Below, piece after piece: positions 37,519 through 61,859 of a DNA stretch of 64,000 nt. Every line of letters begins with the position of its first letter. Positions within the stretch are counted from its first letter, which is position 1. The notes below the pieces were generated by a model. It was not told the DNA's origin, searched no databases, and saw only the letters and a program-made list of their open reading frames with translations. The stretch spans positions 17,223,003 to 17,287,002 of the forward strand of contig NC_089315.1 of NCBI RefSeq assembly GCF_036669915.1, written 5' to 3'. The position numbers and the translations under genes were made by a program. Source of the DNA: Pocillopora verrucosa. Taxonomy: Eukaryota; Cnidaria; Anthozoa; Scleractinia; Pocilloporidae.

Positions 37519-40500
37519 TTACCTCCTTGCACTGCGCAAATGTTGATGGATACGCAAAGCAACCTCTGGAAGCTGCACCTCTGGGCTCCTTAGGGTGTCC
37601 ATAAGGTCAATAATTGTGAATTCCGGGTGTGTCGCTTTGATTGTTTCCAACAGTTGTCCAGTAGCAGGCTTTTCCATGGACTTTAAGTTTTCCCAGTAAT
37701 TAAGGTTATCCTGATTTACCCCCAGTACCTTGCCCACTTTTTTCCAGCCGTATTGTCCACTGCACGTCACTTCAAGTGTCTTTACGATTATGTCCTCAAG
37801 ATCAGGCGATATGTCTGATAAACGAACACCTGCAATTTTTAAGAACATTTTGTCAAGTTAGTGACTAAATATTGCTCATTACGGACTGCGGCTGTGGGTT
37901 CTATAGTTACTCAAAGATTTATGGAGAAGTTGTGGTTTTATAGTCACTTTTACTTTACAAGAAAAACTCGAATTATCACACTTGTTTTCATCGTGTAACA
38001 ATTTGGTTTAGTTTATCATAGAATCATTATGAATAAAAGATTAGCACTCTGTTTTGAAATTATAATGACTAACTTTCAAGGTCAGAAGTAGTTGTGTATT
38101 CCTTTGAAAGTGTGCCTTCTAAATTGCCTCTGTTAAGGGTGACTCCTTGATAGAGACCTAAAAAAAAAGTACAAAGACAATAAAGATATTTTAAGTAACT
38201 CAAACGTTTTACTTTCGCTTTCCTTGGACCCTCGCAATGGAACTTAACTAGTGCCATCTATTGTTTGCATTGAGCATGGGTATTTTTTGTGCATAATGTT
38301 ATGCGTAATTGGTGCCTACACGTATGGCTTTTCCTGTTAGACCAGAGCCGGCCATACGAACTTGTTGTGATTTGTGCTTGTCTGTGTAGTAGTTTTGGTC
38401 CTGGTTGAATGAATGGCCTAATCTCGTTCAGTACAGATGAAAATAGTGATCACAGTCATTACTACGTAGAGATGAAGACATCATTCGCGCCTAACGTGTT
38501 GCTACTTTTGAATGAACATGAAGACCTTTTTTCTGATAAAAAACCGTTGAGTTCAACTAAAGTCTCACGAATGACCTCTGATTGTTGAAAATCATCAATC
38601 GCCGTAATTAACTATTGATATCTAACTACTACGTACCCTTTACGTGCTAATTGTACCCCCTCATGTTAGACACTGAATACTCCTCTTGTTTTGATTCTTC
38701 CATACATCTTTTTCTGGTAATATTCTCATCATTACTGAGGTAAAGTTAATCAAGTGTTTCTAATACACCATGGGAAATTAGAGTATTCTGATCAAAGATA
38801 TGAATGCCGGCGTTTCTTAAAGTTTACTTGTAGTAGTGTAATTTTTAACTATTCTTCTTTCGTTCCAATATCTAAGCCCCGTTGTATGTCGTTTTGTTTA
38901 TCAAGTTTACTTTCTTACCGGTTTGATATGTATTATCTCCCAATAGCGACTTGTATTCTTCTGCACTTGTCGGATTTATCTTTATACAACAAATCACTTC
39001 ACACCTACTTTGCCTTTTACAACAGAAGCATGCTATCATCACGCTCACTGAAATCAGCGCCAAAATAAGTATGGCTACAAGTACAGTTAGAGTTTTCACA
39101 AGTGTTGTGAAGTTTATTCCAAAGTAATTTGAAGCGGTTTGAAGTTTTGTCTCCATAACATTCATTTCTTTGGAAGTGGTTCCAAAGCTCTCGTTCGAAT
39201 GTTTGGCGTTAGCCACTGCAGTGCGCGAAATGCTTGGAAGCGAAGGGGTTTGTTCGGTAGCCATTTCATTTCCACTTCTTTCCAGGGCTTGTTGAACCTC
39301 TCGTGTAACCCTCGTTCTTTTTAACATCTCCTGTACATTAAATGCCGATTTTGGTGGGTTTTCTGAAGTGTTACTGCTACGGACATTTTGAATTGGCCCT
39401 GAGTTTGAGGGTGTCTTTCTCTTGGGAGTGTTAAGCCTCGGGGGATATAAAGCCAACATTTGAGGATCGCTTCCCTTGGTTTTTATTTCTAGGGTGCAGT
39501 TTGTTCTTAAACATTGCCCTAGATTAATACACTCCAGTGTAGCAAGGCGTTTCGTCCCGCAACACTTAAAACATTTTTTGCAAACATTTTCTGTCTTATT
39601 CCAAGGATACGTTCCACGAGGGCAGGGTCCACATCGTGCATTTTTCCAAGCTAAACATGGACTGATGGTTTGTTTCGGACTACATTTCTGGCATGGGAGA
39701 CAAATGCCTCGGCCTTGGCTATCCTTGTAGGCATTCGACGGGCATACTGTGCAAGCTATTACGGCGTTTTGCTGTATTTTGCTACCACATGGTGGAGTTA
39801 GTTGTCGCCCCGGGGGACAATCAGAGCAAGGTTGGCATCTGATTGTCGTATTCTGTTTACCAAGAATTTGGTATGATAACGCTGGGCATGTTCTATCTGG
39901 ATAGCTGTTAGCTTGGGGAAGGTTCCAAAGAGTCCAAACCTGTTTAAGTGGATAGTAAGAGGTGAACATACGGCCAGACATTGCACTCTGTCCATTAGAT
40001 ATGATTCACTTCTGAAATGGATGCAGTCGAACCTGTATTAGGCGGTCATTCACGGAGAATGGCGGGGTAATGGCGGAACCGCTTAATAAAGGTTGACTGC
40101 CAAATACAGGTTCCACAGAATAGCATAGGGGTCCAACGCCATAAAAACCGCCATTTTGTAGTAATAGTCACAAGAGGAAAGATTATGTTTATTGCGCTGA
40201 GACATCTACAATCAAAAGTGTCAAAATTGATTTCGGGATATAAACATTGTACAAATTCGAATCGAGAGATTATTCTTAGTTTTATGTAAGTGGTTTTGGA
40301 TTAAGTGACCATTGCCGGTAAAAGTAAATGACAACGCAAACAGGCCATGGGGGACCACGACCGCTTAATAGAGGCGGCGTCGACAAAATCGATCTGTGAA
40401 AGTGACTACATGGAGTTTTGGGGCGAAAAACTTTCAAATGGGTCTGCCCTCCATTATGTCTCGCAGACTCTATTTTGGCTTGTTACATAGCATCTCTAAT

Positions 40501-41609
40501 TTTTATTAAATATAATTTAATTTTTCATTCCCTTGATCCGTGATCCGATTCGTGAGGTTTTTGGGCCGAAAAAAATAAAAATTTCAGTTGGACCTGCGCT
40601 CAATTATGTCACGCGACTTTATTTTGGCTTGTCACGCAAAATTTTAATTTTATTTAACACGATCCGATCCGTGATCCGATCCGTGATCCGATCCGTGATC
40701 CGATCCGTGATCCGATCCGTGATCCAATCCGTGATCCGATCCGTGATCCGATCCGTGTTCCGATCCGTGATCCGATCCGTGATCCGATCTATGGTCCGAT
40801 CCGTGATCCGGTCCGATCCTGGTTCTGTTGGCGCCGCAATAGAAGTGAAAATGACGGTACTCACGGTGACAGCTTAATACGATCCCGCTTAATACAGGTT
40901 GAGCTGAACATCCTCTCAACACCTTTATCTCAAATGACATCAACTCGGTCAAGTAAAAGCAGTTCGTGGCCCACAGCATATCCTTATACGTTGCTCAGTT
41001 TTTAAGAAGAGAAGGCAAACAGGATGCAACGAATCGCCATTTCCGAGCGCAAATGACGGGCACGTGATTTTCCAAATGGTACTTTGCCCTTTCGCTTAAT
41101 ATGGACGGTCTCATGATTATCATGAGTGATTGTGATCCTTTCACCATTTCCATGTGACTGATGTCGAATCGCTTTCTGAATTGCTAGTTCGGAGAATTAA
41201 CGATATTAAGAGTGTCTGTAACCAGACCACGAGATGCCGCCGAGAGGCGAAATAAAATGTATCTAAACGAAAGGTGTACTTGAAACATCAAACCTTAATC
41301 ACAACATCCTGCTTTAAAATAGCGTGAAACGGAAGGTATTTGAGTGCATGTAATTGTTTCCGTGACTTACTCGATGTATTTTGTCAATTTGCCTCAAGTT
41401 GTTCAATTCATGAAGCGCGCAGATTGTGGAAAAAAAGGTAAGTTATCACTTACAAAGCAAGTTATGAAGGCAATAGCGATAAACTTCCTGATAAGCTCCA
41501 GAATCTTTGTAGACCACCAAATAGATAGCTTTACCCTGTCAAATTTTATCGTGTAAATAGGATCTGCTTTTAACTGTATGCCTCTTGAATTTGTGGGAAG
41601 TATCGAATC
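37519..41609 (-). CDS. TNF receptor superfamily death receptor A
   Basis: Four exons are visible: 41,454-41,609 (N-terminal hydrophobic exon), 38,919-39,939, 38,074-38,157 and 37,519-37,829; joined, they are open for 523 codons before the stop. Exon 1 ends in a hydrophobic run (KFIAIAFITCF) serving as signal peptide. Exon 2 has three CRDs: one with CQPCSDCPPGRQLTPPC, one with CTVCPSNAYKD..CLPCQKC, one with CGPCPRGTYPW..CKKCFKCC. A Ser/Thr/Pro stalk with LKRTRVTREV follows, then a membrane helix (TLTVLVAILILALISVSV) and CCKRQS. Exon 3 encodes 28 residues (GNLEGTLSKEYTTT). Exon 4 is a death domain (LSDISPDLEDII, YGWKKVGKVLGV). Ligand-driven death-domain signalling is the expected role. Exon 1 has no ATG in any frame; where receptor C has its first ATG the aligned bases read ATA. 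The true start is therefore in an unseen upstream exon, or the gene is damaged. Confidence 0.85.
40023..40905. mobile_element. Foldback element with internal satellite (copy 1)
   Basis: The left end, GCAGTCGAACCTGTATTAGG, is inverted relative to the right end, CGCTTAATACAGGTTGAGCT. Internal CCGCTTAATAAAGGTTGAC and GACCGCTTAATAGAGG motifs recur. A body segment (GAGAGATTATTCTTAGTTTT, AAGTGGTT) also occurs in the second copy at 57,513-57,980. It lies in intron 1 of receptor A and contains the 12-bp satellite described separately. Confidence 0.7.
40661..40819. repeat. 12-bp tandem repeat GATCCGATCCGT, about 13 units
   Basis: The unit GATCCGATCCGT is repeated about 13 times with a few single-base changes (GATCCAATCCGT, GTTCCGATCCGT, GGTCCGATCCGT). 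Because 12 is a multiple of three, it leaves long open frames on both strands, which explains the apparent RSVI and GSDH repeat ORFs. Confidence 0.95.
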
Positions 41610-44030
41610 CTGCAATTAGAAAAGAACGACAGCGGTGCATTAAAGTTTAGCAACGTGACATCGACCGAGGAGTACAGCTGGCGAGGAACTTGAGTTCGAG
41701 GTGCTGACATTTTAGAGACATGAACGATCCAAGAAGTCTTTGATAAGTCATCGTCCACTATGCATGTATATGTATTAGGCGTAACCTACAAATTGTTTTT
41801 ATTGGTGGATTGACGATAGAACTGATAAACGTCAAGCAGCATTTAGCGTTACGTCCTTGTTTGCACAGCCTTGAGTATCGTATATCTATGTTCATATGTT
41901 AATGTGCTTCCTTCTACAAATATTTAAAATACATGTCACCCTCTTTGGAATCACGAAACTTGATTTGAGCCAATATCAGCCCATTTTGTTCAGTCCTTAG
42001 ATTCTTTTCACTTAAATGTAACGGCACATATGTCTGTAGCAGCACGATTTCTAAGGCTTAAAGCTTGAATCAAATTAAAATTAGTATATGGAAGATGTAA
42101 ATATAAAGCGCAGAGTTTAAATATGTTTTCAGAGTTATGCTACGCTCTTATTAGTAATCGCTAATGGAGACTGATACCTTATGATGTTTCCCCATTTGAC
42201 TGTTGTGAACTAAACGATTACTCAATGACTTGTTCGACGTAAAAACCAAATCTTCGTCAACCTATTTACCGAATGCCTCGTGTGATCGAAACACAAGAAA
42301 TCGAAACTATTGCCCATTCCTTTACGGGCATTTTGGGGACTCCCCTTTGGTATCATAGCAACAGAAGCTGAAAAAGCTGTTAGGCTCTGGTGGTTTTGCT
42401 TGATGAAGGATTCCATTAAAGCTCTTCCGACGATGTCCGCTTGTTCGGGATCGAGTGGTCTGATCGCTGATTCAACTTTAGCCATAATCTCTGTAGCAGG
42501 TATGAAGTAAGAAGTTACTACGAACTTCAGGCCTTTCTTCAGTAGGGCAGTCTCGGAGTCGCTAAGGGACTTAGAAGATAGTCACGCAATCCAAACTTCC
42601 TAAAGAACTTTTGTTCTATGTACGTAAGATCTTTAAAAAAGTCATCACACCTCGAAATAATTTTATCAATTTGTAACGCCACCAAGTTCTTAAAAGTTGC
42701 CGTAAAGAGCCCACGCAGCAAGTTTAGCGGGGGCCATAACAAAGAACACGTTAACTGTAATAATGTGCCAACGGAAATCTTGATTTTAATTCCCCAAATT
42801 TAAACGTGGTTAAAAATAGCAGGGGCGTCGTTTATACTGTTAAGAAGTTTTTCAACCCTCATTAAACGATTCTCAAATCAAAGTTATTATTAGTGCAATC
42901 AAATCTCTACCGCTGCTCATGATGTTTTCTGCTTCCTGAACCTGATATTCGATGTTTTTTCCAAACCTGCAGAAACATCACGGTATAAGACCAGTTCACT
43001 GAGCTGAATGGAAATGAACAAAGCACCACTGCTCACTGAAAATAAAATCAAGGCAGCGGCTGATATTAATTGCGCATCAGCAGTCCTCTTTCAGTTAATT
43101 TTCAATATTGGAAAATTCGTCAGCAGTGTCAAGAAGAGGAGGTCTGTCTGATCTTTCTTCTCGTCAAGGTTTTTAAATTGCATTCCTGTTCTACGAAATC
43201 AACTTTAAATAAAGCAAAACGGACATTTAGCACCAGCATACAATACATATGCCGAAGCTCCTCTTACCTCCATATCAGAACTAACTGTGCATATTAATAA
43301 ACGTAAAAGAGTATGCAGCACAAATTACTCATATATTCAATATGCTTTTACTTTGTTCGCTAGCCCGAACCTTCTTTTACTTAATTTATTCCTCTTGTTG
43401 ATGAACGACTTGCTAGAACCCCTAATTTATTTCTGTTATTCTTACTTTTTAATAAAGCATATTACTAGAAGCTGATGTTTCTTAAGTTTGAAAGTCTTTC
43501 TGAATATCTTACGTGTCTTCTTTACTGCTCTATTTTTCCCATGATAATTGCCCATATGTATCGTGTTCAATATTCATGGTTGGAACGAACAGTGGAAGAA
43601 CGATGGGAATAAATCAAGTGCGGGACAAAAAGTTAGACAAAAAGCAAGACAGGAGTGAACGTTCTTAATTTGGATCCATTTCAGTCTTCATGGACGAAAA
43701 CGGTTGCAGACAGTCGAAGAAATTTTAACCGACGCTTTAACTGAGCACTGAAAGTGAACTGCGGAATATACTGAGCTGCTGGGGGTGGGCAGGCTCGTTT
43801 TCTTTTTTCCCAAAGAAGGCCGCTTTATGCTGTAATGTTACAATTTTTCAAGAGAAGCTACATTTCTTTCTTCCTGGAGTTAACGTGGATTGAAATGAAT
43901 GTGTGGATTCGCTCATTTTTCAAGTACGCGTTGATTAAGTGGTATCATTTAATTGAACTTTTAACTTTGCATTTAAATTTTCTTTAGATAAAAATATAAA
44001 TTGTATTAAAGAATGCGTGGAAACCACATT
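41610..44030. other. Intergenic region between receptors A and B
   Basis: No intact gene is seen. The part next to receptor A (to about 42,240) shows patchy similarity to the DNA upstream of receptor C (56,071-56,750), for example TACCTTATGATGTTTCC against TACCTTACGATGTCTTC. A probable retroelement remnant occupies about 42,222-42,594. The rest is AT-rich with no recognisable feature. Confidence 0.5.
42222..42594 (-). mobile_element. Probable retroelement ORF remnant
   Basis: Read on the minus strand, a frame without ATG need encodes LSDSETALLKKGLKF, then FIPATEIMAKVESAIRPLD, then GRALMESFIKQNH. The order LS-x-E-x-x-LLxKGLxF followed by a short helix is what I recall from the segment upstream of the reverse transcriptase in retroelement polyproteins repeated in cnidarian genomes; this is a memory-based assignment. 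No reverse transcriptase motif follows, so it is only a fragment. It could instead be a piece of an unknown host gene. Confidence 0.4.
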
Positions 44031-47000
44031 TTAGTTCCTCGGCACACGGTGCCGAATTATCGTGTCGGCAACATTTCCAAGTTTTACTTTAGGTCTGTTG
44101 AGTACAGCAATAAGATCCGATATAGTCTTTCCTTGACTTCCCAATTTCTCAAGTAATCGTTTAGTTGGGCTTTCATCTTTAAGAGTTCCTAAGTGTTCAT
44201 AGTATTTGAATTCTGTAGGAGGAATTCCAACCGCGTTTGCTACTATCTGCCAACCGAATGTCCTGCTATGATGTACAGACTGTACGTCACCCTGTGGAAC
44301 ATCCAGACGCATCACCAGTTCATCCAGGAGGTCTGGGGGCATATCTGCTAGATTGAGATCTAAGATAGAATCGATTTCAATTCTTTAGTATTGTTTCTGT
44401 CATGTTTTGGTGTCTTGTTTCAAATATAGAGTTGGAGTGAATTTTTAAGATCTATGATTTTTCAGAGATGATAATGTTCATGAAAAAACTTCGCGCTTCT
44501 GATTGGCTGAAAGCGAGTGCAAAGTTGTAACACGAGTGCAAATTACAAATAGCGCGAGCTGTCAAAATTTTGTCTGTCTTGATTTATTGTGATGCTTTGT
44601 TCATGTAAATTACATGAAAGCCTGGTTCGCACCAATGAAAGAAAGACAAAACGATAAAAGCGTTGTGACAAGGCAAGGTCATTCCTTCGTTATCTTCCAG
44701 TGTGAAAAAGTAGAAATAACCACATCGGTACAACATTGTGACAGTACAGGAATATTGATATGAAGACATAATCACTTAATATCAACCTAGCTAGCAACCT
44801 AGACATAATGACATAATGAGAAAATTGATTTTTCCTCGGTGCCTTTGTGTCCTTATTCTATTGCGTCGTGTGTGTTGATCAGATGTAACTGATCTTGGTT
44901 TCCTTACCCTGTGACACTGTAACAGTGCTTGCTTCGTCGAGGGTCTCATTGGTAGTTTCTCCTTCTGCACTGTCCAAGGTGAAATCTAAGTAGTAATCAT
45001 GAAAATATAATAATATATTTCGAGAGGAAAACTATTTAGAGAACTTATTTTGAACAAGCAGCTAAGAAATAAAGCTCACTAGGAACGATATGACAACTGC
45101 GTGGTATAGTTGCAATTTTCTCAGTTTGACGTAGATCTCGATAGATAGCGGTATCGACTTAGTTGCTATTAATATATTATGTTCTGACCCATTATTCTTC
45201 TTACCTGTACTTTGAGGTTCTGTGGAGTCTGATGACGTTCTTTTTAACTCCTTCGGGTCTTGTAGTATCTTGCAGACACACTTTTTGCATAAGGTATACA
45301 CGAGAAGCCCCATAAGTACCAGAAAAACAGCGGCTAAAATTGTTCCGGCAAAGCTGCCGAGGGCCGAGTTCAGGAATTCATTTTGCGCAGCGTCATCGTG
45401 TGGTGTCACCTCTCCCAACTCTGTTACTTCTTTTAGTGTAGTCTCAGTTGTTTGAAAAGTGATGTAATTTTTTCCAAGTGACGCTTGAGAAGAAACCTGC
45501 TCTTCCAATTCAATCGCACGAATTTTGGTCCCGTTGAATCTCCTTTTCGGTGTTAAAAGATGGTTTGAATTTTTACTTTGGTCCGTTATTGGCTGCTCAA
45601 CCTCCTCCTCCTTTATGTTTTTAATGGGAGGAATCCTAAGAAAATCTAATTCTTCTTCTAGTTCATCCCAGTAGGAATTTTTTCCCGTTTGGCTGTCCGT
45701 GTTCTTCAAAGACTGATCACTTTTTGATTCAACTTCGGCCTCCAAGTCTCGTTTTACTATAGTCAATGAAACATTTTTGTCGTTGGAGTCCAATTGGTCA
45801 AATTGGCTCATATTTTTCATACGAATTTGCTTCAGTGACATAGTGGGTTCTTTCGTTAACGCTTCGTTGTTCATAGCATTCGTAGATCTTGCAATCTTTT
45901 TATTCAAATATTTCCTTGTTTTTGTCGACCGTGCGCAACTTTCTCTACATTTTTTCGATATCAAGCATCCTATTTGAGCCGCATAACTTTTTGGACAACA
46001 ACCAGAGCAAGGTTTGCATCCGTGTGTTTTTTCATCTTCGTAGTGTCTCTTTGGACAGTCCTGACATTCTGTGTTTTTCTCTGTGGTGCAAGAGCTAATG
46101 ATGTTTCTTGATTCACAATCACTGCATATCTTGCAGGACCTACTGTCGACTTTGTCTGAATATGTTCCTGGTTTGCAAGGTATGCATTCACCAGCAGGTT
46201 TTGTATCCAATGTAATACCACACGGTGCTGAAGGTTCCTTCCCAGGAGGGCATACAGGACAAGCGAAACATTTGATCCTTCCGCTTTCATCTTCATGAAC
46301 AGTGTAAGTCTCTGGGGGACATTTAGCAAGACCGTCTGGGTAAAATTCACTGCTGTCTTGCAAATCCTCTAAAAAATTCCACTGCTGTACAATCAATAAG
46401 GAAAGAGAAAGTGTCACAACTGTTTTTGGAATATTTAGCTCTATTGCCTTATTTGTCGAACTATCACTTATACAACATATGAATAAGAATAATTGTTTGA
46501 ATATAATTACTTGGAAGATCAACAAGGCAACTGCATTTTAATTTACTTTCTTTAAGAAAAAGCAACAAATCGCGCGTCGGCTAGTTAAAAAAATTGTGCT
46601 TCGAGATAACTAGATAAATAGACAGTTTATTAAAATATTCAAATTACTAGCCTCCTAGGGCTGAATTGCATGAAATTTACTAAAAGTTAAAGTTATGTAT
46701 ACATTTATAAAATAAACAATTTTATGTGCTATAAAACGATTGTAGAAGAAACTACGTATAAAAGTTTTACCGATTGGACATGAATGTGTTCGTGTAACCA
46801 TTAGTGTGCATTTTTGGCAACCTAAATTGCGATGGTTTTTAAAATTGTATCGATCTGGTAATGCTTTTGGGTGGTAGCAGATGATGGAGTTTATGTGCAG
46901 TATTAGATACGACTGAGAGTCAAAGAGTTTATAACACTGTTCTTTGCGCCTGTCTCATTCAAACATCTGATACAAAAGGCCAGGAGAAATTACGAAACCC

Positions 47001-47356
47001 AGGTAACAGTTGTTATTGCCGTACGCGACGTGGTAAGAGCGAGATATGACTTCGTTCTCCATTAATCAACAGAGCCTGTGCATCCCTCAGATCACGCAAG
47101 CTATTAAATTAAGTGACAATATTCGTAGTATTCAATTAAGCGTACGAAATCCTATGCTGAAGCCCATAACATTCAGTAAGCAATCTGGTTTAAATTGAAA
47201 TTAAAGCAAATACCATAAATGGCCTCATTTTTTAGGGAGACTAATTATTCTAATATTAGTTTCGTAATAATTCATACTAGATGACTGACTTACCCACAGC
47301 AAGAAGAGGAACCCAAAAATAAATAGCACTTTGATAATAACTTCTAATTCTGCCAT
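44031..47356 (-). CDS. TNF receptor superfamily death receptor B
   Basis: Exons are 47,294-47,356 (signal peptide), 45,205-46,384, 44,908-44,985 and 44,031-44,359, giving 549 residues with intron phases 0, 1, 1. Exon 1 encodes MAELEVIIKVLFIFGFLFLL plus W. Exon 2 has three CRDs (CFACPVCPPGKEPSAPC; CIPCKPGTYSDKVDSRSCKI; CQDCPKRHYEDEKTHGCKPC with a CC pair after it). It then has a stalk of about 180 residues, the longest of the four, rich in Glu, Asp, Lys and Ser, and a membrane helix (GTILAAVFLVLMGLLVYTLC, about residues 366-388). Exon 3 is a 26-codon Thr/Glu-rich linker. Exon 4 is the death domain (LADMPPDLLDELV, FGWQIVANAVGI). The frame open upstream of 46,384 is intron, since the TTGATTGTACAG acceptor ends there. 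B is the most divergent of the three receptors with full CRDs. Confidence 0.9.
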
Positions 47357-50300
47357 ATTTTGCCATGATGGGATCATGTTGCCTTCTATCGACGGTGCTA
47401 CGAAAGGGTCTTACCTGTATAACAATGATAAGATAGGAATAATATTCAATTTGCATTGCAAAGGCGCCGTGAGCAGAGCTAGAGGTTGGTTTAATAAGTG
47501 CATGTTTGCACAACAAGTAAATAAATGTAGCTCGTATGATTGATACAATTTAAAAAACTATGAATACTGACAACAATCAATTACAAGGAGCAGGTGTTGT
47601 CCTCTTTGACTATTTTGCAGAAATGTATTTTGCAGGTAAATTGAATTGTAAACCGGAAGCAATAATAGAAGTTGTATCAGCGATCATCTAATAAACCTTA
47701 AAAATTGCATTTGCCTTGTGGAGGTAAGCTCAAACAAATGAATTTGTATTTGCCTAATTAATCAATTCGAACAATGAAAGTTTTGATGATAATTGAACAA
47801 TCAATTCACATATTGAAAGCAGGCTTTGTCATAGTCTGTAAGTCTGACAGACTTAGGAAACACTAACAGGAATTTTTGTGAACAAGTCAGTCAGAAATCT
47901 TGGTGACCTACATCTCGTGCATTGGTTATCTGGGAACCCTTGCTAGTGTCCACCTGAAACCTGACGCGCATTTAACGGAGATTCCGTTACTAGCGCGATA
48001 ACTTAGCATAACTCGTAACAGATAGCGGCCATGTTGTTTATAATAAAACTCTCGGAAGGTAAGAGTAATTTTTTTTCTTAGATAAAGAACTCACTTTTCC
48101 TTTCTTCCCCCCAAGTGAAAATAGGCAAAAATTGGCTGTGTAGCAAACTAGAATAATTATTTATCAACAAAGTATACGATGCATTAAATATTCGTTGTAA
48201 GGCTTAAAAATTTTCTATGCTATGTAAGCCTTCCGTTTGAGATCGAGAATGTAGAGGCAATTGATGCAGGTCGTGAAGGGTCTCACACGACTCTAGCATA
48301 GTAACGCCGCAACATCACTGAATTATTCTGTTGAAAGGAAAAATGGTCCATATTATTCTGAAGAAAATTGGTCATTTTATGTTTTAATCTTTGAAATTGC
48401 ACAACAAAATATCAATTTTCAACATCCACAATCATCAGAAATTGATATTGAACTCGTCAGACACGTATTGGTTTAGTTTTCGATTACTCTTATCTCCACC
48501 GTTCTTGAAAACATAAGATCGGCCTTAAAAACAACGCAACTTTCAGAACGTGGAATTCAGAATTAACTACATCCTTACCGTCGAGGTCTTAAGAAGGAGA
48601 GAGTATGTTGCTTGGTCTGTTCGAGACTGAATTCCTGTTGAGCAGTTCTTCCTGTGAACGGTATACAGGAGTTATACGTCCAGAAGAGTCTCTCCTTCGA
48701 TAGCCCTATCGTAGATAAATTTGAGTCTTAATTAGAAGATACCTTCCCGGAGTATATAAACGGATATAATACTGTGTTGCTGGAAAATCCACAAGTAGAT
48801 GTACTAACACTAATACCCGTCGTGCGTGACTTTGCTTGTTGAAGATTAATGCAAATTTGCGGCCGCTTTCTCGGAAATTGTGCTGATTTGTCATTGGTCA
48901 ACCAAGGGTGATTATATCAAGCTCTTGGATACTTTTCGTTTGAACTTCAAACCCGATCATTCCATCGTGAATAATACAGAAAGGACTTAATGACAGGAAA
49001 CAGTTATGTTTAAGGAGACATTCTTCTTTCTTTCATATACCGGAAGGACTTTATAATCCTAGTTATATGTCAATTTGGCTGTCTTTCTGACGCATCTTAG
49101 CAGGTCGGAATGCTTTCTCCTTATTTTCATCGACAATAGCCGGTGCACCGGGATTTTTTTCGATATTTTGGTATCTTTCGCTCTTCCTTTAAAGATTAAT
49201 AAACGCAAATTAACCTCAACCCATCCTTGCATGGCAAGGAAGGTCGCGCTAATAAGATCGTGGTAATATGTTTGGAGATTGGCGTTGTAATGTCTCTAAT
49301 GGCCATTGGCTACGCTCAAGACCCCGAACATAATTGTTCTCGCTATGGACCTCTTGCCCTTTTAAAAACGTTTATATTTTTGTCTTTTCTTTTATGATAA
49401 AATACGCGCTTTATGCCAGGAAAATTGGTTGATGCAAATTGTAGAAACTAGGCTTTCACAGAACATTTAAATGAACTTTAAATAGGAGGAACGCGCTTCA
49501 TGATCCTTCTTTGTTTGGAGAGAAATCGAACTGATAGCCTTTATTTTCAGGCGGAAAATTATCTCTGATTTTTTTCCTCGGAAAAACAATGAATTTGAAA
49601 ACAGGATTCTAAAAGAATTTCTAAAGCTGCGTTAGCCCTTCATGCGTTAGCCCTTCGTATGAGTAAAAGGAGAGACGCCCATACGCCTTTTCATTTACCT
49701 TACGGTTGCAAACATCGGCGAAGTGACACTCGTGAAGAGTACAGCCTCTAACTCGATTGAAATTTCTACAAATATTTCTATCATCAGGACTGTAATCTGC
49801 GAAAGCTGTAGCCCCTGGGAGGCTTTGCCTAATGAGGGTCTAGTTGTAATTACCATCGGCTCTGAGGAAAATGTGTGCAGATGGTGGGTGCCAAAACTCC
49901 ACGGGTAATCATAAATGGCTTGAATGTAATGAAATTCATCAGCAATCCTGATGGCCGGCTACGTTTAGCACTAAGTTCCATAATTTTGCAGGTTTAGGCG
50001 AGATAATACTACATATCCTGAAGGGATGGTCACTTCGCACAAGAGGGCAACTGGTGGAAAATCTAAGAGTTCCCTATAACCCACTAGGCCAAGAACTGAT
50101 TTTAGGTCTAGAGGAAATTGAAGGTTTCTCACCCTCTATAGCTTGGGTCGGATTTAAATACATCGCTAACTCTTGAGCAGCTTCAGGTCCCACCAGAGGC
50201 CCGTCCAGATTATGTGAAAACGTGCTCGGCTCAGCTGGATGGCCAATTTGGTTTGTTTACGTACCCGCAATCAACGCGTCCAGCGGTGTCTGTGGGATGC

Positions 50301-50560: not shown

Positions 50561-50855
50561 CGAAGTGCACAAACAACAAGAGCATTCCGCAGGCTACTAA
50601 AAAGCACCGTCCGAAGTGCACGAACAAGAAGTTTATTCCTCGCTCAACTAAAAAGGACCAAAAGGCACCAGGCAAAGTGCAGAAACAACAACAATATTCT
50701 GCGTTCTACCAAAAGAGCACCGTACAGAGTGCACCAACAACACGAGTATTCCATGTTCTACTTAGATGCACTGCGCAACAAGAGGTGCATTCCTCGTTCT
50801 GCTATAAAGCACCGCGAAGTGCACGAACGAGAAGTTTATTTCTCGTTCTGCTTAA
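50561..50855 (+). repeat. Minisatellite, about 45-61 bp units, six copies
   Basis: Imperfect units follow the scheme CGAAGTGCACGAACAAGAAG, then TTTATTCCTCGTTCT, then ACTAAAAAGCACC. Units start near 50,561, 50,612, 50,673, 50,725, 50,770 and 50,815. The open frames across it come from the repeat and are not genes. Confidence 0.8.
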
Positions 50856-50896
50856 AAAAAAAAGTATAAGAAATATCTAGTTTTTGTATCTAACAG

Positions 50897-51058
50897 ATTG
50901 CCTGTGAAGAGATAGCATCTGCAATGGGAGCAGCTTTACACGCAGGGCTTACTTGTCCAATAGTTGGACAAGAGTATCAGTTGAGCCAAGTTGCCGATGC
51001 TTGCGTCTATATTGCAGAAGGAAAAGGTGCCAGAGGGAAATTGGTCTTGATTGTTTAA
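50897..51058 (+). pseudogene. Orphan intact copy of the oxidoreductase last exon (copy 3)
   Basis: An acceptor (TTTTTGTATCTAACAG) precedes a 162-nt open frame, exactly the length and phase of exon 8 of the oxidoreductase gene, ending TAA. It encodes 53 residues, with VGQEYQLSQVADACVYIAEG and [10 protein letters not shown] aligned to the end of the enzyme. No other oxidoreductase exon is found within several kilobases. It lies 18.7 kb past the working exon on the same strand, beyond receptors A and B on the other strand. It may be the last survivor of a second gene broken by the receptor expansion, or an alternative last exon. The open frame argues for recent loss or some use. Confidence 0.75.
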
Positions 51059-51211
51059 TTGGGAAAGTATGAGTTGGACATTGCCTGCTTGTTTTCTTGA
51101 TTACAATTGGTCTCGTCGAGGTTTAAAAAATTATGGGTTTTCAAAGAGTTTTCCTACTGTAGATAATGATTTCAAGATCAGGTTTGAAATAAGTTATTGT
51201 ACTCAGTTTAC

Positions 51212-51300
51212 GGTCAAGTCGCCCAGAAGTCAGCTCGCCTGACGTCACATCACCCGGAACCTGAGTCACGTCGCCTGGAATATTCGTCATGTCGCCCGAT
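51212..51300 (+). repeat. Degenerate GTCGCC-type tandem tract
   Basis: Short units such as GTCAAGTCGCCC, GTCACATCACCC, GTCACGTCGCCT and GTCATGTCGCCC recur at about 20-30 bp spacing. Confidence 0.6.
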
Positions 51301-51726
51301 TTTTTTTGTTATCACTTGTAAAAACATCAAAATGGAATATTTTTAGAAACTGTTGAAGCTACCGATCGAAACACCTTTTAGGGGTACATACTTACGTTAC
51401 CAATCCTTTACCAGCAAAATGTCACTGTAAATGCGACCTGATTTACAGTAGTTACAAATAGGATTAAATACACGGAGCTAAATTAATTTTCTTTATTAAG
51501 GGAAATCCTATTCAGGCATTATAACCATTATAAGTATCAGAATGCACAATACACTGCACAGAAAAATCAAGTATACAAAAATAACAACAGTACTTTAATT
51601 ATGCAAAACAGCACCTTCACTAAAAACAATATTTAATGACAACTATGTAAAAAATAACTATTTCAACTGTTTCTTCTTTTCATTGTTGCTCATTTGTTTT
51701 ATCTTACTTTACAGATCTCTTTACGT

Positions 51727-51960
51727 TTAACCCTTTCACTCTCAAAATCTAACTCTCCTCATGATTTAACTTTCATTTCTAATGGTATTTCTGAGAATTT
51801 AGTCGTGAATTAATTGATGGTCTCCTGGTTGCCGTTGTACCTTTCTTTATTTTCATCACCTGCCTACTTTTTATTCTACACTAGATATTATTAGGAGAAA
51901 TTATGTGACACAATTATGCTCCAAAGACCTGATTGGTTACCTCAAAAAAGTTAAATCCAC
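51727..51960 (-). repeat. Dispersed repeat, inverse copy of the 16,020 family
   Basis: It begins TTAACCCTTTCACTCTCAAA, the inverse of the end block of the repeat at 16,020-16,162, and continues through TTCTGAGAATTT and TTATTAGGAGAAATTATGTG. Similarity is patchy. Confidence 0.4.
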
Positions 51961-53083
51961 TAAGTTAAGATAATTTCTCACTGTAGCTAAATCTCTATTC
52001 GCAATTAGTCCACCATTGAGCACATTTCCGGTGAAAATCATTGAATGATTATTTTCCAACTGGCCAATTTCATAATTCAGTCTACATGTGATTATTAGTT
52101 AGGACCACCCTAACTGGAAATGTAATCAGGTTTTTTAGAGGAAGAACTACATTTTGCTGTTTTTTTTTGGTGTTGGAAGCTATCTCCCAGAAGATAACCT
52201 CAAACGTTGTCAATAAAGTCTAAATGTCTTGCCCGGGTTGTTCAAATCTGAGTTAAGATAACCCATGGTTAGCATGGAATTTGATTTCAGGTCTGAAAGC
52301 TTTAAAAGAAAATTCGTTTAAAACTTTTTGCTTGCAATTTGATCTTTGAATGTTCTAAAAAGAATAGGGAAAATTTTCACTAAAAGGGTTTGGAAAAAAG
52401 AAGTATAGAAACCTGCATTAAAATTTATCCCTGGGCTGACACAAATCGGCCTTTGAACAACTGGGCCCTGAACTTTAAACTTACTTACATAACTAATGCA
52501 ACTGTGTTTAAGTGTAATGATGTTTCATCTATTTAAACTACTGAGTTGTAAATATCCTATAATTTTTGGAGGAGAGAAGGTGACATTTTATCATTTTAGA
52601 GTTAATTTGCTACTTTCACAAGTGCCACAGCCCTCGATGAAAAATAATACCTCCAGTATTATGTTTCCTGACAAGTTCATGCAATTCACCGTGAACATTA
52701 TAATCACTAATTATAATCTACATTTACTGGTAGTTAGGTTATCTCACGCAAAGTGTTATTTTGCATGATATAACATACATTAATTGTCATCAGACTGAAA
52801 TTTTTAAAAATAACACTAGGAGATTTAAGTAATTAGGTTATTAATTTTTATGGCTTATTGACATGCATCAGTGAAAGGTTTGATTGATATCTATTATGTA
52901 GAAAGATTGAAAAAATTGACCCTTAAAATAAACGGTTTGAATTAGCCACTCAGAGTGGGCTGTAAGCAATGATTTTTAGACCCCCCAAAAATGTACTCAA
53001 AACTACACGTGAACTTCATTCATCAGCTACATGCATCAGGTAGCTGTCTGCAACTCTTTCCCTGCTTTTTGGAGTAAAGGTAT

Positions 53084-56040
53084 TCATCTTACTTCATTTT
53101 GTAAATGTAGACGGATGCGTTGAACAACATCTCGACGTTTTACGTCTGGGCTCTCTAGGATATCTATAAGGTCAGCAATAGTGAATTCTGGACGTGTCGC
53201 TCTCAGTTTTCTTAACAGTTCTCCTGTAGCTGGACTTTCCATTGACTTTCCGTTTTTCCAGTAATCCAGATCGTCCTGGTCAATCTGTAATGCCTTTCCC
53301 ACTTTTTTCCAACCACAGTCCACTTCAAGTTTCTTAACGAGGATGTCTTCAAGAAAGGGGGATATGTCACTTAAGGGTGTATCTGAAATTTAGGTACATA
53401 TAGGTGATTGAAGTGAGATAAGATTATTAATACTGTATCACTAAAAAACTTTTCATCTTGTCTTTTTTCATTAAGAAATCTTTTGATTGAAAAAGAACCT
53501 CTCTTTTAGAGTTACTCACTTTCAAGGCCAGCAGCAGATGTGCTTTTCTCAGAAAAGCTGCCTTCCAAATTGCCATTGATTAGAGAGACTTGTGTGTCGT
53601 CACCTAAAAAAAAATAAAAAGAGACAGTGGCGAGATCCTACACAAAAGAAAAAAATATAATAAATTTTAGGTAGCTTGACTCTCATTAGTTTGACACTCC
53701 TTAATATTGCATCGTACATTTTTGTCATTTTCTTTTTTTAACCCTACCAACATCATATGTACTTACAAAACTAAGTTTATTTGCTGATTACAGAAAAAAA
53801 CTTACAGAAAAATTTCTTACAAGCCAGAGACTAATCAAAGTGCAAACACTGCATGAATACAGAGAAAGTAGGATGCTTAGAACCCAAAATGAATGGCCTC
53901 TTCTCTATGAAGCAAGTACATGAATTGTGAAAATACTGTGGCTGTGATTCTTACACAGTACTTTAAGTCATTACGTTTTGTCAAGTTATCCGAGGGTAAT
54001 AAATGGCCATGGACCCCAAGAAATGAGATTGGCGGTTTATTTTGATTAAGGACGTGTCAAATTTGCTGGGGTTGTTTGATAAGTAGAATCATTTTTCAGG
54101 CAATCAGTCTCAACAGTTCAAAGATCTTTGCCTTTAGTTTATACATAGATTTTCTGGTAGAGACTTTTTTCTTACCGATTTGATGAGTTGTTTCATCCAG
54201 TAGCTGTTTATATTCTTCGGTACTCTTCAGATTTATACAACAATTAAACACACAATATCTAGGCTGAAGATGTCTTGACTGCCTTTTACAACAGAAGTAT
54301 ACTATGACGCAAACTGTGAACAGCGCCAAAATAGATATAGCCACAATAACGATTATTATAATCTTCACTAGTTTTGCGAAGTTCATTCCAAAACAGCTTG
54401 AAGCCATTTGCAAATTGGAATCGACAGTGTTGAAGTCAGTGGAGACAGTTCCAAATTCCTCGAATGATTTGGTGATGGTGGTTATAACAGTATCTGAATT
54501 ATTGCTGAGAAGAGTGGCGATTTTTTCGTTTGCCAGTTTAGTGGTATTTCCTTCACTGACTCCTTGCAGGACCTGCGGAACATCTCGTGTTACTCTCGTT
54601 CTTTTCAAAATGTTCTTCAATGCCAATTTCTTTGCGTTGCCTGAATTTTTACTGCTAGAAACACCTAGAAGTGGCGCTGGGTTTGGAGGATTTATTATCG
54701 TCGCAAACCTTTGAGAATCTATCTCCAATTTTTGAATATCATTTCCCTCATTTTCTATTTCTTGAGTACAGTTTGTTCTTAAGCATTGCCTGAGATAAAA
54801 GCACTCCACCTCAGCAAAGCGCTTTGGCGCACAACACGACGAACACTGTTTACAAGTGTCCACTGTGGGGCTCCATTGGAAGGTACCACGAGGACAGGTC
54901 CCACATTGTGCATTTTTGCTCGATGTACATGAGCTAACGGTTACTCTTGGACCGCATGTCAGACACAGTTTACAAATACCTCTTCCGCTAATGTCTTTAA
55001 AGGTTCCCGAGGGGCAAACGGTACAATTTATAAATGCATCTGGCTGTACTTTGCTGCCACATGGTGGGGTAAGTTGTTGTCCTGGGGGACAGTCTGGGCA
55101 TTCTTTGCATCCGGTTATCGAATTATGTCCTCCAAGAATCTGGTATGATGATCTTGTGCATGTTTCGCTTGGGTTGTCGTTAGTTTGGGGTATGTTCCAA
55201 ATAGTATACAGCTGTTTCAGAAGCAAAATAAAATATTAAGTAATGCAAGCACCCTTTCATCAATTAATTGAACCTTTCCATCGATGTTATCTACGGTAAT
55301 CGGAATTCGTTATATAAGTTTCGCAATATAATCAGGTGACTCTGAGAATGTTTATTGGCTTTACCAAATAGGGTAGTTCGCGTGACTACCACGGGTTAAG
55401 AACATTGAGCGAATTGCAGTTCCTTCACAAATCCCTAATTGCTGCTACTTTTGAATTGCTTTACGAGTTCAAAGTTTTCCTTATGATGAGTTGCACGTTA
55501 TCGCATATTCTACCGAGAGTGCTCGCATATGAATACTGCCATTTCACGTCAGCATACCTTTAGCATTTAGATGCTAGAGGCGATTTGTTTTGCTGTAGTT
55601 GGCCTTAAAATCAGGCAACAAACCTGACACAAAGGTCTCTATAATTCATTGCGATCAGCCGCAAACGAAATTAATATAACTTAGAGAGCGAAAACAGACC
55701 ACAAGTTGTCACGTAGTGGCGAGTAAATCTTAATAATTCTCTTAGGAACCGTGCTTGGAATCAAATATATCTAAATAAAAAGTGGCGTTATACTTGAAGT
55801 TACTTGACTGCATGTAATTGCTTTCTAGACTTAAATTAATTTCGTACATTAGTTTACTAGTTCTTCCGCTTACTTTATTCAAACATATAGTCAAAGAAAA
55901 ACAATTGAACTGACACTTACAAAGCAAATTATGAATGTAACAAAGATGATCCAAATAAATCTAAGGATCTTTGTGCGCTCCCGAACAGACAGCTCCATGG
56001 CTTCTCTCATCAAATAAGCGAGGTAATCTGTAAACTCCAT
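53084..56040 (-). CDS. TNF receptor superfamily death receptor C
   Basis: Exons are 55,921-56,040, 54,176-55,211, 53,520-53,603 and 53,084-53,382, giving 512 residues with intron phases 0, 1, 1. The start is the first ATG of an exon whose acceptor ends at 56,071 (TTCTCTCAATTCAG); the frame stays open back to that acceptor, so a further upstream start is possible. Exon 1 ends in a hydrophobic segment (FIWIIFVTFIICF). Exon 2 has three CRDs (CKECPDCPPGQQLTPPC; CTVCPSGTFKD..CKLCLTC; CGTCPRGTFQWSP..CKQCSSCC). A stalk follows with LKRTRVTRDV, then a membrane helix (IIIIVIVAISILALFTVCVI, about residues 320-348) and FCCKRQS. Exon 3 is the 28-codon linker (NGNLEGSFSEKSTS). Exon 4 is the death domain (LSDISPFLEDIL, CGWKKVGKALQI, EFTIADLIDILESPDV). 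It is the closest relative of receptor A in every part and the most intact of the pair. Confidence 0.92.
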
Positions 56041-57512
56041 CCTAACTGAACTTGTGGGGAGTATCGAAGCCTGAATTGAGAGAAGAAAGACAGCATTAAA
56101 AACCCAACGTTGTAAAATCAATTTATTTTCAGTCTAAACGGATGAGTAGCGTCGGAAGTGAATATGCCGGAATTTAGAGCTCGTATTACGAATCTGTAGA
56201 GGAACACAAGTAACACAATTGATTTTCTCATTCTTTGAGTAGTCTTCCTGGTCTTAGTCATTCACAAGTCGTATCATTATAATATATACATCTTGTTTTA
56301 CAACATTATTGGTGTGAATGCGGTACTTCAAGCAATGTATAGTGCGGTTTCCTAATGTTTACCTAGCGTTAAATAGTTGAGGTATGCTAATTGATGTTCT
56401 CGTCGCTTTACCCCTCCTTAAGCCCTTATATGAATTTTCACATCTCATGAATCAACAGCTTGTTACAAGCCCCTATGAATAAATTACTTTCACGTTTTGT
56501 ATAATTCAATGTTCCAACAAGTAACGTGTAGTAACTGTGGAAATTTGTGATGTCCTTTAGCTTTAAAGAATATCGAAAGCCTCCCTAAGCTTGCTGTCGT
56601 AAATCAGAATATCAAGCAGTATAGGTCACAGATCTCATTCAACAGCGATACTGCACTTTAGTTATAAGGCATAGTACCTTACGATGTCTTCTCATGCTTG
56701 CTCTGAACTAACCAGATCGACTCCTGATACCTCTGGCATGAAGATGTAACTTTCTTCCGATTATTTTGCGCAGAGCTTGGTAAAGAAAGAATCGAAATTA
56801 GCTAGTACCAGTTCCCCTGGTTCCGAGATCGAATTGATAAATTTCCCTTTCCGATTATGTAAACGGTCGGGATTTATATTCATATGTTTTTTTGTTGACT
56901 CTTGTGTTTTGTTTAGGCTAAAAATTCGCCGGCAATCTTCTTGGTAACTTGAAATCCTGCGATTTTTGCGCATTTGTGTAACGCGGTCCCAAGTTTTTTT
57001 GAGAGTGGTTTTTGTCTGAGATCTTTACTCGAGATGCTAAAAGAATAAATATCTTGAAACCATGGCGGAAGTACAGAATTAATCGTTTTTGTTCACGTGA
57101 ACAACAGTTACACTTGTTCTACCCAACAATTCAAGAGTTTTCTCTAGTCCGGCGCAAAACTAATCAGCCAGTAGAGTCATTAGCTACATCTGGCATTCCT
57201 TCACCTCGTTCTTTTATTCACTTTTTTTCGAAAGAGAAATCATCAATGTTATAAATCTGACTTTAATCAAAAATGTTTTGTGTATGAAAATAACTCGGAG
57301 ACAGAATCTCTCTTCAAATCTAAATCCTAAAACTTAACTGGCTCAGTTCTCCTTGGCGGAAATGCTCCACTTTTATAAATATTTGTTGACGATACCCAAC
57401 GCTGTAAATTCTCGTGCAAGTTTATATCGAAGACAGCACTGGAAACTGAACAACCCACTTAATGAACAGCTAGCTGTTCGCAGCATTTTTTTTCTCATTA
57501 GTTACAAAAAAA

Positions 57513-57980
57513 CACTTGAACCTGTATCAAGCAGCTATACACGCGGAATGGCGGGTTGACCGTTTAATGCAGTTTGACCAGCAAATAACTTGCGTGACAT
57601 TGGTGCGTACTATTTGTCCTGACAGTATTAATTAGGAAGAAAGATAATCTGCAATACATTGAGGGCATTTAAACTCAAAGCACTAATATTCATTCCGGGA
57701 GATAAACATAAAATGAATTTGACTCGAAAGATTACTCTTAGTTTTATTCGAGTGGTTCCACTTTAAGTAATCATTTAATATAGATAGGCCGGGAGAACAA
57801 TACAAACAAGCCTTTGGGACTTAGTCAAGGATGACCACGACCGCTTAATAAAGGTGTGACCGCTTAATAGAGATGAAAATTACTGTGCTTAAGGGAAAAA
57901 AAATTTCGGGATTTCGACAACAGACCGCTTAATACTGGATGACCGCTAAGTGTGGTGCCGCTTAATACAGGTTCGATTGT
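57513..57980. mobile_element. Foldback element (copy 2)
   Basis: The left end, ACTTGAACCTGTATCAAGCA, is inverted relative to the right end, GCCGCTTAATACAGGTTCGA. Internal GACCGCTTAATA motifs occur four to five times. A body segment (CGAAAGATTACTCTTAGTTT, GAGTGGTTCCA) matches copy 1 at about 40,262. The 12-bp satellite is absent. Confidence 0.7.
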
Positions 57981-58668
57981 ATTTAAAGGATAATAAACCA
58001 AAGGAATATCATTAAACACAATATCCTCCATTTGGTGCGAAATATGCTCGTTCGTTCACACTTTAAAGACGTGACTACTCATGTTTGCGGGAAACCCTTG
58101 GAAGTTTGGGAGTTAGCTGCGCACTCGCCACCAATATTTATGCATGCAAATTACCACCTGAAACCTGTAAGATTCATTATCTGCTTGGCGCGTCTTCTGG
58201 TTGTGAACAACTATATTCTATAATTGCTATGATTTTTAAGTTACGCTGCAAGCTCTGAGAAGCCTTTGATTTTATCACTAATTCCAATCAGCATACAACT
58301 TGGCTTATAGATAAATATTGACCTGCTGATTCAATTCGATGATAAAAAGTTTGGATCACCAAACTTGTTCTTTTAGGTACAGGCACATGAAATCGAAATT
58401 AGGGTGTTTCTATGTAAGGGGCTGCAGTGTAGGTGTGGTATTCTAATTTATCAATCAAACGATCATAACATATTCAGAAATATTTAGACATTTCTTGACA
58501 CCGTTTTCAAGGGAACACCGGTAAAAATGGGTGGTAGTGTCTATCCGTCAAGTAATTAAATCAAATGTTAAGCCCACATAAGCTTCGTGTTATTTCCTGC
58601 TTGGGCGCATGTTTCTACGATAGCAGGAAGTTTAATGAAAATGGTTTTCACTACATTTAAAATAAACT

Positions 58669-58674
58669 TTTATT
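58669..58674 (-). terminator. Candidate poly(A) signal of receptor D
   Basis: TTTATT on the plus strand gives AATAAA on the minus strand, about 355 bp after the stop codon of receptor D. Confidence 0.35.
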
Positions 58675-59029
58675 AACACTAAAACGAAATTATTTACACT
58701 ATAATACAGGTTTCGTAAATGTTTACAGTCAGATGAGGCGCTAGGTTGTTTTGTGGCGAACTGTCCTAGATCCCTATACCTCATCAAATCCCTGACAGAG
58801 AACTAAAAGAATGAATTCCATACGATTCAAGTAATTGTCAAATTGCATTTTGAATGTGCTATTTTTTGATTTGACAAACATCCGTTTAGCAGCTTCTATG
58901 AAGAAAAAAAATTTACACCCTGTTTAATCCTTAAACAGAATTGTATTCCTTAAAACTGTTTTCTGGACAGCAACAGGCAGCGGGGTTAAAAGGCCGAAAT
59001 CTTACCCACGCAAATAAAAAAAATCGTTA

Positions 59030-61859
59030 TTATGCATGCTGGGAATTACTGACTGCTTGAATGAATTGAATGACGAGAGACGCGACATCGGGGCGGTTTA
59101 CTTTACTACTCTTCAATACATTGATGAGGTCGGATATTGTCGCACATTTAGAAGTTCCAAGTTTCAATAACAGCTTGCTGGTTGGACTTCCGTTTTCTCT
59201 TTTGTATTCAATCTTTAGGTGACGGAGTTCATCTCTACAGATCTTAAATGCAGCACCCACTTTTTGCCAACCATAGCAATGTTCACCTTTGCGTCGCACG
59301 TCCAGTTTCTCTACCAGTAAGACTTCAAGATCTGGAGGTAGCTCGGACAATATGAGACCTGAAAAATTGAAAAAGTTTGTCGTAGTTGAGACTCGGATTT
59401 CCTCAGCAACCTGAAATCGTTTGAAGTCAACAGCAAGAGGCATTAAATCTGGCTAATATTTGATAAATGGCCCAGATATGTATTCTTGTGAATTTCAACG
59501 AATGACATACGTTACTGATTCGATACAACGCCTCGTTCCAATAAGCGCTGTCTCTCTATGAGGGGCTCCATCGAATTTGCTCTTTTTTAAAAACGTCTAA
59601 ATACCAATTAGTGGCCCCATTCCAATTAGCACCCCTATTCGGATAAGTGTCCCTATTCTGTTTCAGTAATATCACTGTTCGAGTACGATTACATTTTGAT
59701 CAAACGTGGCTCATTTTCCTCCAATGTCCTCATTGCAAAGACAGTGGTATTCCTCTCAGTCTCTCTATTATGCTCACGTGAGTGCACAATTCCTTCAGGC
59801 AAATGACCTCGTCTTCAAATTTTGCAGCGATTACTTGGCTGGTCGATCTGCCCAGGAATAATCAGGAACAACAAGTCCATTTTCCAGTCTTCCTGATTTT
59901 TTTTTGGATCAAGCTTTGTTTCGCGCATACTGCTGTATTTCAAAAAAGAAATAAGCGCCCTGTTTAGAATAGGGGCCCTCCCTTAAGGTACCATAAGTCA
60001 ATAAGCACCTAGGCGCTAAATCAAATCAACGCGGTAATAATGGGATATATTTATAACGCAGATGCAGCCACTCACCTTTAAGATCATCTGGAGAGGTAGA
60101 CAGGTTGGTTGAATTCTTTACGTTTAAGTGATCAGGATCGTCAGAGGAGTACGACATTTCTATGAAAATAGATGAACAAAGTAAACGAGTTAGATGAAAT
60201 AATACGCAAAGTTGACGCTCTATGTGAAAAGATATTTAAATGATTTCGTGTGCAATTTAGAACCAATAAGCAAGATTATTTATTAATGTACACAGATGAA
60301 TTTTGTGGCCGAAGAAAGATGTGTATAAAAAGAAAAAGGACACAAGATTTATGGGTGTTTTTTTAAGCAAACACAATGCGGAATTAAGTTCCTAAAAAAT
60401 AATTACAATACACATAATGATTTTTCGCCCACCTTCAATTGACTCTGCGCTCTTCAGTCTCTGATAGCCTCGGCAATCCTTATTCCAAATAATGTGTCTG
60501 ACACTATTCAGAAGCCACACCACAAACCCAAGCAATATGGAAATTATGACAAGCGCAACAACCGCCACAACTTCGACCCACGGAAAACCACCCAGCACAT
60601 AAGTAATGTTTATAATTTGAGATCCCCAGGTGGCGTTAGATGTTTTTCCATGCAACTCTTCTGTGTATGATGTTGTGAAGTGTTTTGGCCTTTTCGATTG
60701 CTGTATCAACAGTTTGGGTCGTCGTTTCTTCTCCCAACGCTTAACCGTATACGGAAGGGAATTTGCTCTAGAAGGAACCGTCGTCGTGCGTGGCATATCC
60801 AGTGTAGACCTTTTGTGTAAAAGAAAATGCTCACTTAGTTTTGATAAGTTTGAGTTATCAAGCCTCTCCGTCCTATAGATATCATACACCTCCAAAGGAG
60901 ACCAGGTGAAAACTTTTCCATTTCGGCTGCTGAGATGGTTGGTTCCTTTACCATTTGAAAGGTATGTAAGTTTGATCGCCTCCGTAGGCAAATGAGGTTT
61001 CCTTGGTATCCTTTTAGTGGCGTGAATTGCAATTGGCACACACATCACAATGGTATCGATAGTCACTCTTCTGCCACATGGCGGAGTAAGCTTCATGCCA
61101 GTACCACAGGGATGGCAGGGCAGACATTTAATGATGGTACTATCATTGCCGATCAACTTGTAATTTCCTGGTAAACACGTGTCATTAGTTCCTGCGATAT
61201 GGTCTAGCCGCCACCACAACCATTGCAACAATACCTCGTTCTATAAACGGAAGGATGAACAAACAATTATAATATTTTCCATTCGACTGACTGTCACAAG
61301 TGTTCGCATTTGGCTCCTAAAGTGTTTTAGGATACAGGTTACACTGAAGATGAAACCAACGGCGAAATTACAGGTAGTTCAGGCATCTGAGCAATGATCA
61401 TTTGCATGGTAAATGTTTGTATCTTAGTGTAAATAAAGACGTGGATAACCTGTTCCAACCAAGTTTAACCCCAATACCTCAATAAGACTATCAGGGTAAA
61501 GGGACGATGTCTTATCCAGCAATGACCCCCCTTCCCCCTCCTTAAGTCAGGAGGAGTACTAATCAAATTAATCGGTTCTTAGAATGATGTCATGTGTAAG
61601 AGTAACTATAGGTGCATTTTGAGTAATCAACATCATCGAATTGCGTGACCCCAAACTGTGGAAAGAACCGAAAAAAATGGCCCCAATGTCCGCTGTTAAA
61701 GGTACAAAAAATGTAATAACAAGCACTTCCACTGAACACTCCACAATTAGATTTTAGAAGTATTTATTAAATATTTATAGTTGTGGGAGACTGACTTACC
61801 AATATCAGCACTACCACGGCAAACAAGAGAAGCACAGCTTTCCATCCTGGAATCGCCAT
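59030..61859 (-). CDS. TNF receptor superfamily death receptor D, reduced CRDs
   Basis: Exons are 61,800-61,859 (signal peptide MAIPGWKAVLLLFAVVVLIL), 60,433-61,240, 60,076-60,159 and 59,030-59,358, giving 426 residues with intron phases 0, 1, 1. Only the first CRD is clear (CLPCHPCGTGMKLTPPCGRR). Where A and C have CRDs 2 and 3, D keeps framework pieces such as KVFTWSPLEVYDI (compare GTFQWSPTVDTC in C), but nearly all cysteines are gone. A basic stalk, a membrane helix (VEVVAVVALVIISILLGFVV, about residues 246-268), a 28-codon acidic linker and a death domain (LSELPPDLEVLL, YGWQKVGAAFKI, ISDLINVLKSS) follow. The donor of exon 2 is GTGGGC, weaker than the GTAAG of its paralogues. The membrane and cytoplasmic parts look maintained, so it may be a receptor with altered or lost ligand binding, or a gene early in decay. 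Confidence 0.85.

Follow-up and report, generated by a model that had tools for sequence, protein, structure and literature searches.

A probable old tandem family of TNF-type receptors with death domains in the coral Pocillopora verrucosa

Do receptor genes that lie side by side in a coral genome belong to one family, and, if so, have the copies diverged mainly in the part that recognizes the ligand or also in the part that signals? The question is raised by four minus-strand gene models, A, B, C and D in window order, between positions 37519 and 61859 of a 64,000-nt window from Pocillopora verrucosa (NC_089315.1, 17,223,003-17,287,002; all positions are counted from the window start). The first-pass annotation of this DNA had described them as tandem TNF receptors with death domains (DDs), sharing one cytoplasmic output behind diversified ectodomains. 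As judged from sequence, the four genes probably constitute a tandem family of considerable age, whose products belong to the TNF receptor superfamily, bear a DD and are predicted to cross the membrane once.

Family assignment

Each model comprises a hydrophobic exon 1, an exon 2 that encodes the ectodomain and the membrane span, a short linker exon 3 and a DD exon 4. All 12 introns have GT...AG borders, and in every gene exons 1, 2 and 3 end in phases 0, 1 and 1, so the common exon plan proposed earlier is borne out in four of four. The length of the linker exon is always divisible by three. The stop-to-stop frames containing exon 2 extend over 377, 491, 379 and 282 codons in A, B, C and D, respectively, while the longest frame in 40 simulated windows has 191. 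A strong hydrophobic segment is present in exon 2 of all four genes, and a second one, which may or may not be a cleaved signal peptide, is located N-terminally in each protein. Because the ectodomain exon 2 and the DD exon 4 are homologous in 6/6 gene pairs, the genes are assigned to one tandem family, and the earlier proposal of a local array with several ages, in which A and C are closest, is upheld. No extra copies or fragments of the family were found in the window beyond A-D.

The ectodomains resemble the cysteine-rich domains (CRDs) of TNF receptors. The CRD region contains 20 cysteines each in A, B and C and six in D, corresponding to a single CRD, which agrees with the low cysteine number noted previously for D. 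A profile built from the four ectodomains matches 15 sequences of solved structures at E ≤0.1, with EDAR (1.1e-5), p75NTR (1.3e-4) and DR5 (1.5e-4) on top. The Pfam model TNFR_c6 is matched by B at 9.5e-10, above the cut-off, and by C (4.4e-5), A (1.4e-4) and D (0.0057) below it; for the Pfam model Death, C (3.5e-6) passes, and D (4.9e-4), A (0.012) and B (0.021) fall below. These matches, together with those of the ectodomain and DD profiles to known structures, support the identification as DD-bearing TNF-type receptors, as do the unbroken reading frames and the constraint between A and C described below.

Several observations weigh against this assignment. For each domain the Pfam cut-off is passed by just one gene in four, and gene A has no visible start codon in its hydrophobic exon. 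Codon usage lends no coding support to exon 1 of A (-3.0 bits) or C (-4.0 bits), and it is likewise negative for the stalk of D (-3.7 bits; A +10.7, B +5.9, C +4.9). The DDs of Fas, TNFR1 and p75NTR are in the PDB, and none of the 19 matches of the four-gene DD profile to solved structures at E ≤10 is the DD of a death receptor. Outside these comparisons, NCBIfam gave no match for any of eight proteins; 101 stretches in viral contigs and 11 in prokaryote genomes fitted the search pattern, none of which was confirmed as a relative.

Signalling output of the death domains

According to what is known of the family, a trimeric TNF-family ligand would cluster the CRDs, and the membrane span would transmit the clustering to the cell interior. 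The clustered DDs could then nucleate adaptor assembly, either FADD/caspase-8-like, leading to death, or IRAK/MyD88/EDARADD-like, leading to TRAF and NF-kB. The alternative with the strongest standing is one that leaves the family assignment unchanged, namely that the DDs recruit a MyD88/IRAK/EDARADD-type adaptor and feed TRAF/NF-kB signalling in patterning, regeneration or inflammation, rather than caspase-dependent death. We rate this reading at slightly short of an even chance.

The DD matches point partly in that direction. The best match of the DD profile is IRAK3 (2.7e-5), followed by IRAK4 (from 1.6e-4), FADD (from 0.027) and Pelle (0.11); an unrelated enzyme is also among the matches. 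Against this profile, scores of 27.5 bits for IRAK3 and 8.3 bits for the DD of EDARADD were each higher than those of 200/200 shuffles. Taken individually, the DD of gene D finds IRAK4 in the PDB (E 0.0089), and that of gene B gives weak matches only, IRAK3 being among them at E 1.6. A search with the DD of gene C returned a single chance-like match and nothing credible. EDAR ranks first for the ectodomain profile, as described above, and also for the ectodomain of C alone (E 0.0016), and 7 of 13 coral DD-bearing TNF receptors cluster with EDAR in a published tree (PMC4979521). On the other side, FADD is likewise among the DD-profile matches, and the ectodomain of B alone favours p75NTR (3e-4), EDAR being unlisted at E ≤0.01. 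In addition, TNF-induced apoptosis is reported in a coral (PMC4979521), and EDARADD is said to occur from cyclostomes on only (PMC13367198).

Since the DD profile matches IRAK and FADD and the ectodomain profile places EDAR first, the "tissue death" suggested by the first-pass annotation may be one of two possible outputs, with an NF-kB output as plausible as cell death. With an EDAR-like ectodomain combined with a DD of the IRAK/FADD type, it can be asked in concrete terms whether death or NF-kB was the ancestral output.

Short cytoplasmic motifs were also located. Juxtamembrane Y-x-x-L occurs at residues 381 in A, 374 in C and 279 in D, and the sole such motif of B lies inside the DD (501); S-x-E-E is found at 377 in A, 370 in C and 287 in D, and B has none. 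We take Y-x-x-L and S-x-E-E to be candidate endocytic and TRAF-binding motifs.

A more elaborate version, to which we give little credence, would have an EDAR-like array coupling TNF-type ligands directly to an IRAK/Myddosome-like DD platform, with each gene acting as a splice switch and D as a single-CRD DD receptor. The linker exon could serve as a frame-neutral 1-1 cassette (lengths in Table 1), and a transcript that kept intron 2 would encode between 13 and 47 further residues before a stop (A 15, B 47, C 26, D 13), producing DD-less membrane receptors that might act as decoys. Such a decoy switch is speculative because stops are likely in any intron that is long enough.

Integrity and divergence of the copies

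A second alternative holds that at least one of the four genes is decaying or non-signalling, A for want of a start codon, or D with its single CRD and its unconstrained-looking stalk. We regard this as possible but rather doubtful. Exon 1 of A is homologous to exon 1 of C, in which three in-frame methionine codons are present against none in A. The hydrophobic N-terminal exon claimed for all four genes is thus found in each, although in A it has no in-frame ATG. Between gene B and exon 2 of A, a scan for ATG exons that span 10-79 codons and end at a phase-0 GTRAG donor came up empty; the identical scan recovers the modelled exon 1 of B, C and D, and looser donors yielded for A one candidate start exon of two codons.

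The intact remainder of gene A argues against decay. Its frame is otherwise open across 523 codons, so any loss would have to be recent, and the ratio of nonsynonymous to synonymous substitution (dN/dS) between A and C is 0.27-0.29 in the main domains. Moreover, a 48-bp stretch that is 83% alike between the two genes (41586-41633 and 56047-56094) spans the acceptor preceding exon 1 and is better conserved than the adjoining coding part. The conservation of this acceptor suggests that A and C each have another 5' exon, as yet unseen. When open reading frames (ORFs) of the upstream regions were compared for common 5' exons, exon 1 of A and C gave the only match below E 1e-3 among the matches listed, where weaker ones lay at 0.002-0.5. 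Intron 1 of A contains, at 40661-40815, a tandem array of the 12-bp unit GATCCGATCCGT in 12.9 copies, through which several reading frames of either strand run without a stop.

For gene D, the CRD profile aligns at positions 8-61 only, i.e. to its one six-cysteine CRD. A frameshift was considered as the origin of the few cysteines and found no support; the weak CRD-like stretch in another frame scores 3.6 bits, which was matched or beaten in 69/1000 synonymous recodings. The cysteine number and the negative codon usage of the stalk are what one might expect of a decaying gene, but the stalk is free of stops, and D has every splice site and is open from one end of its coding sequence to the other. 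Gene D may be either a live receptor that has lost CRDs or a gene in decay.

The third alternative is the model of the first-pass annotation, in which fast-evolving ligand-binding domains feed one conserved output. The differences in stalk length and CRD number speak for it, and so does the lower identity between A and C in the stalk (52/124) than in the CRDs (82/142; p 0.014). However, the binding and signalling domains themselves have diverged to the same extent. Global identities of CRD and DD are 58 and 61% for A-C, 31 and 35% for A-B, and 31 and 34% for B-C, showing no difference in any of the three pairs tested (Fisher p 0.69, 0.58 and 0.57, respectively); gene D, having one CRD, was excluded from this comparison. 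The dN/dS values between A and C lead to the same result, with 0.27 for the CRDs, 0.29 for the membrane and juxtamembrane part and 0.29 for the DD, compared with 0.67 for the stalk. Exon 1 gives 0.61 over 40 codons, and the 1.3 of exon 3 comes from 28 codons, too few to carry weight. No ratios were derived for the other five pairs, in which 9 of 10 CRD and DD comparisons are saturated at synonymous sites and the remaining one has a dS of 2.0.

Going by the sequences, the CRDs and the DD appear to be held equally between A and C, and the stalk less so. The constant-output, diversified-input model is accordingly not supported and seems quite improbable, while the claim of diverging ectodomains survives in part: the stalk is looser and D has lost CRDs, but the CRDs evolve no faster than the DDs. 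Most likely, what sets the paralogues apart is the length of the stalk, the number of CRDs and their expression rather than faster evolution of the binding modules. Recognition and signalling modules appear to have kept one evolutionary pace here, whereas intuition would suggest fast inputs on an unchanging output.

The closest pair, A and C, are not neighbours, B lying in between, and their sequences indicate that the pair is old (dS ~1). DNA similarity is 66% in exon 2, 72% in exon 3 with its borders and 71% in exon 4, and the introns are otherwise unmatched; since similarity is confined to exons and exon borders, a recent A-C duplication was rejected. A 91-bp match (75%) between 40223-40313, in intron 1 of A, and 57685-57775, upstream of C, is probably a dispersed repeat. 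Finally, that four unrelated receptor genes are adjacent by chance is very improbable, for although neither exon 1 nor exon 3 of genes B and D aligns with the others (10/12 comparisons at shuffle level), the exon homology described above largely refutes it.

Gene models, neighbouring features and known systems

The exon-level models of the cluster of DD-bearing TNF-type receptors are collected in Table 1, and their intron phases can anchor tests of how families of this kind expand.

Table 1. Exons of the four receptor genes, in window coordinates
Feature	Position	Strand	Description
Gene A exon 1	41454..41609	-	hydrophobic; in-frame ATG absent; phase-0 donor
Gene A exon 2	38919..39939	-	ectodomain (20 CRD-region cysteines), stalk, membrane span
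Gene A exon 3	38074..38157	-	linker, 84 nt, phase 1-1
Gene A exon 4	37519..37829	-	death domain and stop
Gene B exon 1	47294..47377	-	ATG, hydrophobic segment, phase-0 donor
Gene B exon 2	45205..46384	-	ectodomain (20 CRD-region cysteines), stalk of 191 aa, membrane span
Gene B exon 3	44908..44985	-	linker, 78 nt, phase 1-1
Gene B exon 4	44031..44359	-	death domain and stop
Gene C exon 1	55921..56040	-	three in-frame ATGs, hydrophobic segment, phase-0 donor
Gene C exon 2	54176..55211	-	ectodomain (20 CRD-region cysteines), stalk, membrane span
Gene C exon 3	53520..53603	-	linker, 84 nt, phase 1-1
Gene C exon 4	53084..53382	-	death domain (above Pfam cut-off) and stop
Gene D exon 1	61800..61859	-	ATG, hydrophobic segment, phase-0 donor
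Gene D exon 2	60433..61240	-	one six-cysteine CRD, stalk, membrane span
Gene D exon 3	60076..60159	-	linker, 84 nt, phase 1-1
Gene D exon 4	59030..59358	-	death domain and stop

Elsewhere in the window, a single-exon rhodopsin-type G protein-coupled receptor of 401 codons is encoded at 11660-12865 on the minus strand (Pfam 7tm_1, E 6.1e-50). A run of self-similar short exons at 20670-24775 on the plus strand, one of which has EGF domains (Pfam EGF 3.1e-9), probably belongs to a multi-EGF gene. Several plus-strand ORFs at 17634-20007 contain repeated tryptophan- and cysteine-rich segments, presumably resembling dermatopontin; two of them had no Pfam match at E 0.01, and the same holds for the neighbouring ORFs at 42225-42581 and 42542-42799. 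At 16676-17392, a 357-bp unit is directly duplicated, with copies that are 91% alike.

Receptors of this kind have been reported from corals before, and the present tandem cluster is another instance. TNFR proteins number 40 in Acropora digitifera, and 39 proteins with TNFR CRDs are given for P. damicornis (PMC6208414). Coral DD-bearing TNF receptors are described as diverse in PMC4979521, and a sea anemone expresses homologues of EDA, EDAR and EDA2R (PMC13367198). Almost one third of the genes of two corals are tandem duplicates according to PMC10236652, whose main text does not contain the term "TNF"; the term is also absent from the available part of PMC12314368, and that of PMC9897584 has, TRAF3 aside, nothing on TNF receptors. 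Among the matches listed in the literature search, no title or beginning of an abstract describes such a receptor array.

Of the known systems, EDAR is the top solved-structure match both for the four-gene ectodomain profile and for the ectodomain of C, although the ectodomain of B favours p75NTR and D carries a single CRD. DR5 and p75NTR are similar in their CRDs, with matches at E 1.3e-4 to 1.5e-4. The DDs of IRAK, Pelle and FADD match the four-gene DD profile, but these proteins are intracellular kinases and an adaptor, whereas the DD here sits on a membrane receptor. The DD-bearing TNF receptors of Acropora digitifera, compared by description only, likewise combine CRDs with a DD and occur in many copies, the available part of the description giving neither their exon plans nor their tandem order; two of them near TNFR1A, 06604 and 06605, are numbered consecutively and may therefore be neighbours (PMC4979521).

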